Shown in pieces: positions 3,855 to 34,861 of a stretch of 64,000 bases of DNA (the first letter of the stretch is position 1; each line of letters begins with the position of its first letter). The DNA is from Dermacoccus nishinomiyaensis. Lineage in GTDB: Bacteria; Actinomycetota; Actinomycetes; Actinomycetales; Dermatophilaceae. The stretch covers positions 558,001-622,000 of the forward strand of contig NZ_UFXX01000001.1 in NCBI RefSeq assembly GCF_900447535.1, given 5' to 3'. Position numbers and translations under genes: made by a program. The notes under the pieces are model-generated. The model was given only the letters and a program-made list of their open reading frames with translations. It made no database searches and was not told the DNA's origin.

Positions 3855-5264
3855 CTAGGCGCGGGGCGCGCTCGAGGTGACGGCGCGATCGGCGGCCGCG
3901 CGGGCCGTCGCGACGCACGCGGGGATGCCGACACCGTGCATCGCGGCCCCTGCGACAGCGAGTCCGGGCAGGTCGGCGAGCGCGTCCTCAGCCCGTTCGA
4001 TGCGCGCCAGGTGGCCCAGGGCGTACTGGGGCAGCCCGTCCCGCCAGCGCTGCACGTGCTGATCGCGCGGCGTCGGCAGCGGGTGGCCGAGGGCGTGCTC
4101 GAGGTCGGCCAAGCCCGCTGCGGCGAGGGCGTCATCGCCCTCGCCGAGGATCGCGTCGTCGCGGTGACGCCCGAGCGAGACCCGCACGTACGTGACGTCG
4201 GGGGCAGCCTCGGCGAGCCACGGCCACTTGATCGACGAGAACGTCGACGCCTTGATCGTGCGGCCGTCGACGGGCGGGACGAGGAAGCCCGTACCCTGCG
4301 GAAGCTGCTGTGCGACAGCCGAATCGAACGCGTAGGTGACGATGGCCATCGAGGCGTACTCGATCTCGGCGAGCGCGTCGGCCGCCTCGGGCGCGAGGTC
4401 GGCGAGCAATCGGGCTGTGACGGGCGCCGGCGTCGCGAGGACGACGGCGTCGAACGTATGCGGCTCGGGCAGGCCCTCGACGTCGACCTCGACGTGCCAG
4501 CCGGCGCGGTGCGCGAGGGCGCGACGCAGGTCTATGACGGTGGCCCCGGTGCGGATCGCCACTCCCCTGGCGTCGAGGGCTTCGCGAAGTTTCTCGGGCA
4601 ACGACCCCATGCCCCCGGCGGGTGCGCCGAACACCTGACGGGCGTCGTTCGACGAAACGGCCGACGACGCCGCCGCAGCAGCCTGCGTCAGCAGGGTGCC
4701 GGCGCGCAGCGCGGCGTAAAGGGCGGGGACGCAGGCGCGCGTCGACAGCTCGCGCGCGTGACCGGCGTACACGCCACCGAGCAGCGGTTCGACCATGCGG
4801 TCGACGACGGCCGAGCCAAGTGCCTGCTCGACGGCGTCACCGACGCTGATGTCGGCGTCAGCATCGTCGAGGGTGAGGCTGACGGCCCGTTCGTCGGCGG
4901 CGCGCGCGACCTCGGCGTCGTCGAGGAGACCGGCGGCGGCGTGTGGGTCGGACGGGATGCCCATGAGCGTGCCCGCGGGCAGCGCCTCGAGCGAGCCTCG
5001 CGACCACAGCATCGCTGGAAAGCGTTGCGGGTGAACGGAATCGACGCCGAGCTCGGCGAGCAGCGCGACGACTTCGGGCCGACGCCAGAGCGCCGACTCG
5101 GCGCCGACGTCGACGGCGTGCCCGGCGATCACCTCTTGGCGCAGCTTGCCCCCGACGCGTTCGTTCGCGTCGAACACCGTCACCTGCGTGTCCGGGTGCG
5201 TCGTGCTGACGTGCCACGCTGCGACGAGCCCCGAGATGCCACCACCGATGATGCCGACCTTCAT
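3855..5264 (-). CDS. hemY: Protoporphyrinogen/coproporphyrinogen III oxidase (HemY/CgoX)
   Basis: FAD-dependent oxidase; in actinobacteria it works as coproporphyrinogen III oxidase, giving coproporphyrin III for ferrochelatase. About 469 residues. The N-terminus [18 protein letters not shown] is a classic dinucleotide-binding motif, followed by [14 protein letters not shown]. The C-terminal [18 protein letters not shown] is the family's FAD-closing motif. The start is uncertain between ATG 5264 (used here, N-terminus MKVGIIGG) and ATG 5276 four codons upstream, which has a GAGGTG Shine-Dalgarno at slightly short spacing. First gene of a two-gene hemY-hemQ operon; hemE lies about 2.5 kb away on the same strand. 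Confidence 0.93.
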
Positions 5265-30647: not shown

Positions 30648-32684
30648 TCAGTCGATGTCGGCGTGAGCGGCGACCGGCATGGCGTCCCCGAGATCACCCG
30701 TCGCACCGGCATCACGTCCCGCGGCCTGCGTGCCTGCGTCACCGTCGCGGGTGCCTGCACCGCCGCCAGGCGCGTGTGCACCACCGCCGTACGCATCGGC
30801 GCGCGTGAGTGCTGCGTCGTCGCACCCGAGAGCGTCGACGATGTCGGCGGCCGTCAGCCCCACGGTCGCGAGCACCTCGCCGCGCGAGGCGTGGACGAGG
30901 AACTCCTTGGGAATGCCGAACGTGTCGAGCGGCGTGCGCACACCGGCTTCACGCAGGCGTCGCGCGACGGCGCTGCCGACGCCCGCCTCGACGAGGTTGT
31001 CCTCGATGACGACGACCCGGCCCGCGGCGCGGGCGAGGTCGACGAGTTCGTCGGCCACCGGGTAGGTCCAGCGCGGGTCGATGACCTGGACGCGACGGCC
31101 CCGATCGGTGAGCAGATCGGCGACGCCGAGTGCCGTCGAGACCATCGACCCGACACCGACGACCAGCACGTCCACGCCGTCGCCGCCGTCGGGTTCACGC
31201 ATGACGTCGAGGCGACCGAGACGTCTCTCGGCGACGAGCGGGTCGGCGACGTCGCCCTTGGGGAAGCGGATGACGCTCGGCGCGTCGTCGATGTCGACGG
31301 CCTCGCGCAGCAGTTCGCGCACCTGTGCGCCGTCGCGCGGGGCGGCGAGGTGCAGGCCGGGCACGATCGAGCAGATCGACATGTCCCACATGCCGTTGTG
31401 CGAGGCGCCGTCGGAGCCGGTGACGCCGGCACGGTCGAGCACGAACGTCACGCCCTGACGGTGCAGTGCGGTGTCCATGAGCAGCTGGTCGAACGCGCGG
31501 TTGAGGAACGTCGCATAGACGGCGACGACGGGGTGCAGGCCGCCGTACGACAACCCGGACGCCATCGTGACGGCGTGCTGCTCGGCGATGCCGACGTCGA
31601 ACACGCGCTCGGGGTACTTCTTCGCGAACCCGTCGAGCCCGACGGGGATGAGCATGGCAGCCGTGATGGCGACGATGTCGTCGCGCTCGGCGCCGAGGGC
31701 GACCATCTCGTCGCTGAACTCGTCGGTCCAGATGCGGCCACTCACCTCGAACGGCAGGCCCGTCTCGGGGTTGAACTTGCCGATGCCGTGCCACTGGTCG
31801 GCCTCGTCGGAGAACGCGGGCTCGTAGCCGCGGCCCTTCTGCGTGATGACGTGCACGAGGGTCGGCCGGCCGTAGTCGCGAGCGCGGCGCAGCGCGGCCT
31901 CGACCGCCGCCTCGTCATGTCCGTCGATCGGGCCGAGGTACTTGATGCCGAGGCTCTCGAAGACGCCCGTGTCGGGGTAGACGATGTCCTTGAGACCACG
32001 CTTCACGCCGTGCAGCGCCTCGTACATCTTCGTCCCGACCTTCGGCGTCGCCTGCAGGCGGTTCTTGCCCCAGTCGAGCACCTGGTCGTAGGTGTGCATC
32101 GTGCGCATCGTCGCGAGGTGATGCGCCATCCCGCCGATCGTCGGGGCATAGGAACGCTCGTTGTCGTTGAGCACGATGACGAGCGGCAGGTCGGCGTCGG
32201 CGGAGATGTTGTTGAGCGCCTCCCACGCCATGCCGCCGGTCAGGGCGCCGTCACCGATGACGGCGACGGTGTGACGGTCGCTCTCACCCTTGAGGCGGCG
32301 CGCCTTGGCAATGCCCTCGGCCCAGCTCAGCGACGTCGAGGCGTGCGAGTTCTCGACGACGTCGTGCTCCGACTCCTCGCGGCTCGGGTAACCCGACAGT
32401 CCGCCGGATTTCTTGAGCTTGCTGAAGTCGTGACGCCCCGTCAGCAACTTGTGGACGTAACTCTGGTGGCCGGTGTCGAAGACGAACGTGTCCTTCGGCG
32501 AGTCGAAGACGCGGTGCATCGCGATGCTCAACTCGACGACACCCAGGTTGGGGCCCAGGTGCCCACCCGTCTTGGAGACGGATTCGACGAGGAACTGACG
32601 GATCTCGGCGGCGAGCGCGTCGAGCTCCTCGGCGGGGATTCGCTTGAGATCGTCCGGACCCGAGATGGTTTCCAGCAGCGTCAC
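30648..32684 (-). CDS. dxs: 1-deoxy-D-xylulose-5-phosphate synthase
   Basis: First enzyme of the MEP isoprenoid pathway; condenses pyruvate and glyceraldehyde 3-phosphate with thiamine diphosphate. 678 residues. [17 protein letters not shown] is the ThDP-binding motif; [20 protein letters not shown] carries the conserved His; [20 protein letters not shown] contains the catalytic Glu; [10 protein letters not shown] is also typical. After the normal end of the third domain ([11 protein letters not shown]) there is an unusual Gly/Ala/Asp-rich tail of about 55 residues ([20 protein letters not shown]). ThDP dependence is noteworthy given the TPP riboswitch nearby. Confidence 0.96.
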
Positions 32685-32855: not shown

Positions 32856-33233
32856 TCACAGCCGAGGGACGAACGTCTTGCCGCGCATCGCCTCGTGCAC
32901 GAGACGGACGGCGCGCGCCGTGGCACGCAACCGCAGCCCCTCCGCGGACAGGTGCTCCATCACCTGCGGCACCGCGCGCGGTGGCAGCTCGTCGGCGAGG
33001 TCGACGCGGATGCGGCGATATGACTCGCGCATCGCGCCGAGTTGAGCGTCGACATGCCACGTCGCCACCCAAGCGAGCGCCACCGGGTGACGGCGCCATG
33101 CGTCGTAGGCCCGAAAATCCGAGGGGCACTGATCGAGCAGCCACTGCGTCGCCGCCTCCTGCCACCCCGGTGCACCCGGCGGCGGCACACCTCTCGGCCA
33201 GCCCGGAGGGCCGGTGTTCACCTCGTCCGACAT
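32856..33233 (-). CDS. Conserved actinobacterial protein of unknown function next to dxs
   Basis: 125 residues, no signal peptide or membrane segment. A Gly/Pro-rich start (TGPPGWPRGVPPPGAPGWQE) is followed by a mostly helical, Arg/Ala-rich body (PSDFRAYDAWRRHPVALAWV, ESYRRIRVDLADELPPRAVP). The ATG at 33233 is chosen over an extension to 33287. I cannot name a domain. Homologues of similar size are common beside dxs in related genomes as far as I recall, which argues that it is a real gene. Confidence 0.7.
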   Translation of the reverse strand: MSDEVNTGPPGWPRGVPPPGAPGWQEAATQWLLDQCPSDFRAYDAWRRHPVALAWVATWHVDAQLGAMRESYRRIRVDLADELPPRAVPQVMEHLSAEGLRLRATARAVRLVHEAMRGKTFVPRL

Positions 33234-33351
33234 GACCCCAGCGTACCCCATTGTTCGAACACGTGTTCTATTTGATGACCGCCCCACGAGACCGCAGACC
33301 GGCGCGAGACACGCCCCCGAAGCCAGGTGCTCTGTGGCATGCTGAGCCCGT

Positions 33352-33438
33352 CACACGGGAGCCCGAGGCGCGGGCTGAGAGGGCATCGCCATGCCGACCG
33401 TCCAACCTGATGCGGTTCATGCCGCCGTAGGGAGTGTT
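33352..33438 (+). ncRNA. TPP (thiamin diphosphate) riboswitch, THI element
   Basis: Conserved THI-box elements appear in order and spacing: CACGGGAGCCCG (33354-33365), GGGCTGAGAGG (33372-33382), GACCGTCCAACCTGATG (33396-33412) and CGGTTCATGCCGCCGTAGGGAG (33413-33434). The closing helix P1 pairs ACAC (33353-33356) with GTGT (33434-33437). The 3' GGGAG is also the Shine-Dalgarno of the permease gene at 33444, so ligand binding should hide the ribosome site and repress translation when thiamin diphosphate is plentiful. This mode is common in high-GC Gram-positives. No separate terminator hairpin is seen between the aptamer and the start. Confidence 0.95.
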
Positions 33439-33443
33439 CGATC

Positions 33444-34772
33444 GTGGCTACCCTGACGCCTGCCCCTTCCCCTGCCCACGACGATGCGCCACGCCTGGCG
33501 CCGGCCGCCGCCACCCCAGAACGGCGCGAGGCCCGCCGCAGCGCCCTCGTCGGAAACTTCGTCGACCAGTTCGACATCTTCCTGCCCGTCATTGCGCTGG
33601 GTGGGGTGCTGTCGACGCGTTCGACGATTCCCGACGGCCTCGTCTTCGCCGCGACACTCCTGGGCCGCCCCCTCGGGGCGTTCATCCTCGGCACCCTGGC
33701 CGATCGTCGCGGACGAGCCCGCGTGTCACGCGGCGCACTGCTCGGCCTGAGCGTGTGCACCGGCCTCATGGTGACGCTCCCCCTGCACACCTCGACGTGG
33801 GCCGTGGCCGCTCTCCTGGCGTTGCGCTTCGCCGCCGGATTCTTCCTCGGCGGGCAGTACTCCGCGGCCATCCCCCGCGCCCTCGCGCTCACAGAGCCGC
33901 AACGACGCGGCCACCTGAGCGGCCTCGTCATGGCGATGTCACCCCTCGCGAACGCCACCATCGCTGCCGCCACGATGATGCTGACGGCCTCACTCGGCGG
34001 CGCGTACACCACGTGGGGGTGGCGCCTGCTGTTCGTCGTCGGCGCACTCCTGCCGTTGATCCTGGCCCTCACCGCGAGGTCAGCGCACGCCGGGCCGGCA
34101 GGTCACAGCCACTCTCCCCACGAATCCGACAATCGCGATCCCGCCGCGCACGACGCGACCGACGACGAGGAAGAGCGCGTGACGGGCCGTGTCGTGGCCG
34201 CATTGTTCACCCTCATGACGGGGCTGTGGTTGTTCACGATGATGGGGGTCTCGGTGCTGACGAGTTCGCTGCGCCCGCACTTCTCCCCCCATGACGTCGG
34301 GCTCGTCATGCTCGTCGCGACGGCCGTCAGTGCGCCGACGATGGCCGCGGCGGGTGCCGTCTCGACGCGTGTGGGCCGTTCACGCTTCTTCATGGCGTTC
34401 GGAGCACTGGCCTGCATCGCCGCCCCCGCCGCCTATCTCGTGGCAATGCATGCCGCGTCATCGGGCAGCATCGTCGCCACGACGATCGCCGTCGCGACCG
34501 TCCAGATCGTCACCGTCTCCGCCTACGGCCCGGTCGGCGCCTACCTCGCCGAACACTTCCCCGAGTCGCGACGTTCGCGCGGTTACGGCAGCGTCTATTC
34601 GGCGTCGATCGTGCTGCCCGGCCTGTACCCGTTCTGGCTGCCCACCGTGACACAGTGGCTCGGCCGTTCGGCCGCCGTCCCGCTCGTGCTTTGCGTCGCG
34701 GGCCTCCTCGTCACTCTTGCCCCCGCGTGGATACGCGGAAGTAACGTTGGTGGTTACGAAAAAGTAAGTTGA
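33444..34772 (+). CDS. MFS transporter under TPP riboswitch control (candidate thiamine or precursor permease)
   Basis: 442 residues, 12 predicted helices with a hydrophilic central loop of about 45 residues rich in His/Asp (SHSPHESDNRDPAAHDATDD). MFS motif A appears as GTLADRRGRARVSRG between helices 2 and 3; FAAGFFLGGQYSAAIPRAL and the SRRSRGYGSVYSA segment resemble the metabolite:H+ symporter group. GTG start; the Shine-Dalgarno is part of the riboswitch. Control by thiamin diphosphate argues that the substrate is thiamine or one of its pyrimidine/thiazole precursors. The family alone would not predict this. Confidence 0.88.
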   Translation: MATLTPAPSPAHDDAPRLAPAAATPERREARRSALVGNFVDQFDIFLPVIALGGVLSTRSTIPDGLVFAATLLGRPLGAFILGTLADRRGRARVSRGALLGLSVCTGLMVTLPLHTSTWAVAALLALRFAAGFFLGGQYSAAIPRALALTEPQRRGHLSGLVMAMSPLANATIAAATMMLTASLGGAYTTWGWRLLFVVGALLPLILALTARSAHAGPAGHSHSPHESDNRDPAAHDATDDEEERVTGRVVAALFTLMTGLWLFTMMGVSVLTSSLRPHFSPHDVGLVMLVATAVSAPTMAAAGAVSTRVGRSRFFMAFGALACIAAPAAYLVAMHAASSGSIVATTIAVATVQIVTVSAYGPVGAYLAEHFPESRRSRGYGSVYSASIVLPGLYPFWLPTVTQWLGRSAAVPLVLCVAGLLVTLAPAWIRGSNVGGYEKVS

Positions 34773-34861
34773 GTGGGTGAAATCAGCTCGAACCGGTGGC
34801 GACGCCGTGATGATCTTGTTAACGTCGTGACTCGGTTCACATCGACTATCGAAGGATGAGC

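Follow-up and report, generated by a model that had tools for sequence, protein, structure and literature searches.

A TPP riboswitch-controlled MFS permease of Dermacoccus nishinomiyaensis is a probable importer of the thiazole precursor of thiamine

The window analysed here, a stretch of 64,000 nucleotides from Dermacoccus nishinomiyaensis, contains a 442-residue MFS permease whose gene follows a TPP riboswitch, and we think it fairly likely that this protein is a riboswitch-controlled importer of hydroxyethylthiazole (HET), supplying thiazole where the thiazole synthase ThiG is missing. ThiM would phosphorylate the HET taken up, and ThiE would join the HET phosphate to HMP-PP derived from ThiC and ThiD, bridging the missing ThiG step. 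The features of the locus, in window coordinates, are as follows.

30648-32684, minus strand: dxs, 1-deoxy-D-xylulose-5-phosphate synthase (TIGR00204, 612.3 bits, cut-off 465.95)
33345-33450, plus strand: TPP riboswitch aptamer (RF00059 at full length, model positions 1-105)
33428-33434, plus strand: 3' segment of the aptamer (P4 3' strand, joining bases and first base of the P1 3' strand), holding the Shine-Dalgarno sequence
33444-33446, plus strand: permease start codon (GTG), 10 nt downstream of the GGGA core and within the bounds of the Rfam match
33444-34772, plus strand: MFS permease, 442 aa, predicted HET importer (from family, context, phylogenetic profile and model)
34074-34178, plus strand: codons of a His/Asp-rich central loop (about residues 211-245), of low confidence in the model and unconserved

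Scanning the whole window with Rfam cmscan gave a single match above any gathering score, that of the TPP riboswitch (THI element, RF00059) at 33345-33450 on the plus strand, which covers the model end to end with 68.5 bits against a gathering score of 54.3 (E 2.4e-11). This bears out the nearly canonical THI-box described in the first-pass annotation, and structurally we noted no difference from the known class. The Rfam structure line places the P4 3' strand at 33428-33431, the joining bases at 33432-33433, and the P1 3' strand at 33434-33438; the Shine-Dalgarno-like AGGGAG at 33429-33434 lies inside the aptamer as its final segment, as had also been claimed from the letters alone, so that ribosome-binding sequence and start codon both stand at the aptamer's 3' end. 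Because that end contains the permease Shine-Dalgarno, TPP probably turns translation off: with TPP scarce, the aptamer would be open, 33429-33434 free, and the permease made, and with TPP bound, P4 and P1 would close over the Shine-Dalgarno and translation would stop, a response that we infer from the layout. The evidence for the aptamer is the covariance score, the folding energy of the leader being not unusual relative to shuffles (z 0.43 and -0.17). The riboswitch sits in the leader of the gene for this permease, a predicted thiamine-related transporter.

A similar layout of the P4/P1 3' segment and Shine-Dalgarno recurs in 17 relatives. There are 22 directly linked orthologue leaders, of which we counted 18, including that of the window; taking as start codon our choice of the one closest to the aligned N-terminus, we find 4-12 nt between the end of the terminal aptamer segment (a GGRA core, GGGA or GGAA) and the start codon in 18/18. 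This spacing supports control at translation, with the aptamer itself capturing the Shine-Dalgarno and no expression platform apart from it. The leaders outside the count are those of genomes G064, G024, and G272, where the automatic start lies elsewhere, and G069, where a short upstream ORF follows the aptamer; for G064 and G024 the printed sequence shows a start adjoining the aptamer. A short upstream ORF was also seen by eye in Raineyella (locus L019, approximately 4865-4945) between riboswitch and permease, and the overlap of its stop with the permease start suggests translational coupling.

The protein was described at first pass as an MFS member resembling metabolite:H+ symporters, and the models agree: MFS_1 (Pfam) gives 81.8 bits against a cut-off of 33.4, and the nearest NCBIfam model is the metabolite/H+ symporter TIGR00883, though under its cut-off. 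The permease resembles these symporters (including E. coli ProP, ShiA, and KgtP) over residues 67-397, with an acidic TM1 motif at the corresponding place; its score of 112.5 is far below the TIGR00883 cut-off of 443.45, and its family forms a clade of its own. Proton coupling, like substrate and transport direction, is a prediction. An AlphaFold model built with 13 sequences is helical, with a mean pLDDT of 85.6; values drop below 50 in segments close to each end and over residues 214-230. Its best structural matches are MFS chains of several kinds; the structure search and a PDB sequence search returned generic MFS chains (sugar, phosphate, and others) and no pointer to a substrate. The unusual His/Asp-rich central loop pointed out in the annotation does exist, with 5 His and 9 Asp/Glu, and it proves to be an oddity of one protein. 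Each of the 42 aligned relatives has at most three His in this loop (one has 11 acidic residues), and we discarded the loop as a substrate or metal site because 0/42 match its His count and it is mostly of low confidence in the model. Among the 43 aligned sequences the His-rich loop is private to the window's copy and gives no functional hint.

The genome of the window (3.1 Mb, two contigs) has four TPP riboswitch matches at E <= 0.001: that of the permease at 68.5 bits and three others at 60.0, 48.3, and 35.9 bits, of which only the first exceeds the gathering score. These three precede a thiB-like set, thiC, and thiM-thiE-thiD, all placed elsewhere on the contig than the permease locus, and for these genes the earlier statement that no thi gene is nearby holds. 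The thiB-like set, of thiBPQ type, consists of a lipoprotein, a two-domain ABC permease, and an ATPase behind a TPP riboswitch of its own; the lipoprotein passes the cut-off of a thiamine-binding subfamily model and fails the thiB equivalog, and neither the ABC permease nor the ATPase reaches its equivalog cut-off. ThiC, ThiM, ThiE, and ThiD each score above a curated cut-off. Full-length ThiG was not found in this genome: PF05690 gives two partial matches (30.5 and 20.0 bits), the weaker of which reaches 34.9 together with its neighbours, and full-length ThiG proteins elsewhere score at least 315 bits. From this computed gene complement, the genome therefore encodes HMP synthesis, the thiazole kinase, and the coupling steps, and apparently does not make thiazole, as judged from ThiG. 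The nearest enzyme gene upstream of the permease is dxs, which lies on the opposite strand and outside the control of this riboswitch. Its product, DXP, is a thiazole precursor.

As the first-pass annotation had recommended, we looked for the same riboswitch-permease pairing in related genomes. A collection scan yielded 12 orthologue loci (42-50% identity), and 58 related genomes yielded six more besides the window's own (40-52% identity, E 1e-65 or better), the remaining matches there being at most 34% identical with E 1e-22 or worse. Among 396 genomes of the order, searched at E <= 1e-30 with at most four first-look candidates scored per genome, 33 carry the permease, 27 of them new, which brings the total to 46 genomes with that of the window included. 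A co-oriented TPP riboswitch lies upstream, at a distance of at most ~2.1 kb, in 40/46 loci. In the first 19 loci it stands directly before the permease in 11 and one gene upstream in five (16/19, counting sub-threshold riboswitches read by eye in L009, L014, and L019), and in the other 27 it lies within 2.1 kb upstream in 24. Three further loci lie among thi genes with no riboswitch visible: L017, in the order thiM-thiE-thiD-MFS; L016, with the permease behind thiM and a ThiE-like gene; and L126, in the order MFS-thiM-thiE. In L016 and L017 the riboswitch could have been cut off, because both contigs end at thiM. No thi link was found in the remaining three genomes (G041, G289, and G292; 3/46), the surroundings of G289 being covered by the TPP search only. 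By this computed family-wide linkage, 43/46 orthologue loci have a TPP riboswitch or thi-gene neighbours, and the view that this permease is not normally linked to thiamine has to be given up.

The operons take several forms, TPP-thiC-MFS-thiM, TPP-thiD-MFS-thiM-thiE, thiM-thiE-thiD-MFS, and MFS-thiM-thiE. The gene between riboswitch and permease was identified for part of the one-gene-upstream loci: it is thiC in L018 and L119 (scanned), L081 and L120 (placed), and L009 and L080 (by sight), and thiD in L082 and L122 (with tenA) and L124 (without tenA). Among the 27 genomes new in the order sample, 13 have a thiM start 104-201 nt downstream of the permease match, and in G010, G037, and G428 thiM likewise stands immediately behind the permease; overall, thiM adjoins the permease in at least 16/46 loci.

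Several observations were made alongside this survey. Five genomes from another family of the phylum (G474, G526, G556, G565, and G660) have homologues that were set aside; these have other neighbours, judged from ORFs by sight rather than by family-library scans, and their flanks of ~1.2-1.6 kb contain no TPP match at E <= 0.1. Distant homologues at L136-L141, also in another family of the phylum, carry the TM1 motif GFFVDMFDIYLP or a similar one, have no TPP match nearby, seem to be surrounded by other genes, and possibly serve a non-thiamine role. Contig WNZI01000005.1 (L011), labelled Vibrio cholerae strain 35D, has its genes in the order seen at loci L010 and L012 of Arthrobacter; the assembly behind it was probably mislabelled or mixed. 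In Kocuria palustris, a SAM-IV and a SAM riboswitch lie back to back close to the permease locus (L014, 7886-8222).

The distribution of the permease among the 396 genomes, which encode ThiM in 181 cases, ThiG in 104, ThiC in 67, and the permease in 33, points to its substrate. ThiM is present in 33/33 permease genomes against 148/363 others (Fisher p 1.1e-12), two matches within the 33 being imperfect (weak in G117, in two pieces in G024), and the permease occurs in 0/215 genomes without ThiM; by genus, ThiM is found in 13/13 with the permease against 33/94 others (p 5.6e-6). Within this sample it is thus encountered only alongside the HET kinase, as expected of a HET transporter. In G024, which also keeps ThiG, the two adjoining pieces of the ThiM gene (G024:C1:2137582-2138306) may reflect a frameshift. 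This association bears on whether the permease imports thiamine itself, the riboswitch then acting on a plain vitamin importer. TPP control would fit, and a genome without full-length ThiG would benefit; a thiamine importer, however, needs no thiazole kinase, yet in the 396 genomes the permease is never found without ThiM, it adjoins thiM in at least 16/46 loci, and the genome of the window already has the thiBPQ-type transporter under its own TPP riboswitch. We consider thiamine an unlikely substrate.

The second pattern concerns genomes that make HMP. The permease is present in 12/14 ThiC+ThiG- genomes and in 2/53 ThiC+ThiG+ genomes (p 1.3e-9), or, in a hand tally by genus, in 5/6 against 1/18 (p 8e-4); these genomes cannot be treated as independent, one genus supplying 7 of the 12 ThiC+ThiG- carriers, and the statistics were computed without a species tree. 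Divided by ThiM, it is found in 12/13 ThiC+ThiG-ThiM+ genomes and 0/1 ThiC+ThiG-ThiM-, in 5/37 ThiC-ThiG+ThiM+ and 0/14 ThiC-ThiG+ThiM-, and in 14/104 ThiC-ThiG-ThiM+ and 0/174 ThiC-ThiG-ThiM-. ThiG absence was rejected as a simple marker of the permease, with ThiG in 7/33 permease genomes against 97/363 others (p 0.68). Absence of ThiG is common across the whole order, and only the ThiC+ThiG- class is telling; among ThiM+ThiC- genomes, ThiG absence and the permease are unlinked (5/19 against 32/122, p 1.0), and full-length ThiG is kept in 9/46 permease genomes. In HMP makers, then, the permease appears where a HET transporter would fill in for the missing thiazole synthase, and it does not follow this rule in ThiC- genomes. 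The whole distribution is most simply read as a dependence of the permease on ThiM, with retention mainly in genomes that make HMP but not thiazole.

Import of the pyrimidine precursor HMP, or of HMP degradation products, would be suggested by L082 and L122, where the permease follows a thiD-tenA fusion gene and could serve HMP salvage. The permease is, however, concentrated in ThiC+ThiG- genomes, which make HMP, and only 5/51 ThiC-ThiG+ genomes carry it, where an HMP importer would be expected; this is the least probable of the readings that we weighed. The HET importer is favored because the observed profile is the one predicted for HET and not for a thiamine or an HMP importer. The guess made at first pass, of thiamine or a pyrimidine or thiazole precursor, was thus right in kind, and the comparison narrows it to HET.

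A genus-mate, G001, is the sole ThiC+ThiG-ThiM+ genome of the profile without the permease. It has ThiC and ThiM, lacks full-length ThiG, and shows TPP matches at a thiB-like binding protein as well as at thiC and thiM. Sequences flanking the window's cassette are conserved there at the DNA level (dxs region 85%, a small ORF 84%, a secreted ORF 71%), and alignment of window positions 32856-34856 with L130 5092-6660 places a BenE-family permease gene of G001 in the position of the riboswitch-permease cassette. Because the flanks are shared while the slot in G001 holds this other gene, the comparison indicates that the cassette was either gained in the window's species or lost in G001.

The window's copy is itself the most diverged member of its family, and its substrate could therefore have drifted. 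In a tree built from 43 orthologues and 12 paralogues, the family groups as a single branch (SH-aLRT 100), the alignment taking in 43 of the 46 orthologues and leaving out G282, G321, and G393; the window's permease has the longest end branch in the family (1.44; the median for all rows is 0.31). At near-invariant columns, those common to at least 40/43 aligned sequences, it deviates at 13/99, two of these being gaps, and the next highest member deviates at five. Consensus residues lost include E148, W149, Y211, and R313, and the TM1 motif GNFVDQFDIFLP is retained with much of the conserved core. Across the orthologue alignment the TM1 motif comes in two main flavors, DQFDIF and D[NQ]xHxF, which split the family with few exceptions. 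The divergence may reflect drift, a change of specificity, or early decay, with riboswitch and reading frame intact. MFS carriers can run in either direction, and one could imagine export of HET or a thiazole breakdown product, or a diverged copy that has moved to another thiamine-related substrate, as the loss of near-invariant E148, W149, and Y211 and the private loop might indicate. Repression by TPP, in contrast, fits import under vitamin scarcity, and the intact riboswitch and retained core argue against a shifted substrate; we regard export or a shifted substrate as very unlikely, and HET import as the preferred reading.

ThiW is not known to be an MFS protein. It resembles the window's permease in being predicted to fill the same metabolic gap and in its reported position after a putative TPP riboswitch of Bacillus methanolicus, where it is called a thiamine transporter (PMC4342826). 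ThiU (HI_0418; TC 2.A.1.6.12), encoded in a Haemophilus thiamine gene cluster, is closer in kind: it is an MFS thiazole transporter predicted by Rodionov 2002, as cited in PMC10588857, and shares with the window's permease a likeness to metabolite/H+ symporters, linkage to thi genes, and thiazole as predicted substrate. Both ThiW and ThiU are listed as HET transporters in Table 1 of PMC6593275, and on average 30% of the genes under TPP regulation encode transporters (PMC3766115); a TPP-controlled precursor permease is therefore already a known kind of system, and the supposed rarity of the pairing finds no support. Our tree combines 19 family members taken from the 43 aligned, E. coli YhjE, ProP, ShiA, and KgtP, and 12 actinobacterial paralogues; in it the window's family is a branch apart (SH-aLRT 100), with ThiU represented only through YhjE, which PMC10588857 gives as most similar to ThiU among published MFS transporters. 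This suggests a recruitment separate from that of ThiU, although the permease may still be a ThiU orthologue. This actinobacterial TPP-MFS pairing is described in none of the titles and abstract openings of the literature matches listed, and an earlier listing is quite possible. We see about an even chance for the fuller account, in which an MFS branch separate from ThiU was recruited in Actinobacteria as a dedicated TPP-riboswitch-controlled HET permease, with the window's copy diverging rapidly in a slot that holds BenE in the genus-mate.

Thiazole importers are a weak part of thiamine-salvage maps, with ThiW assigned to 64% of HET auxotrophs (PMC6593275) and the ThiU prediction described as experimentally untested (PMC10588857). 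If the reading proposed here is true, it would provide an actinobacterial permease family with a clear neighborhood and gap-filling signature that is directly testable, would explain the thiazole supply of thiC+ thiG- Actinobacteria, and would explain why thiazole cross-feeding could matter for them.
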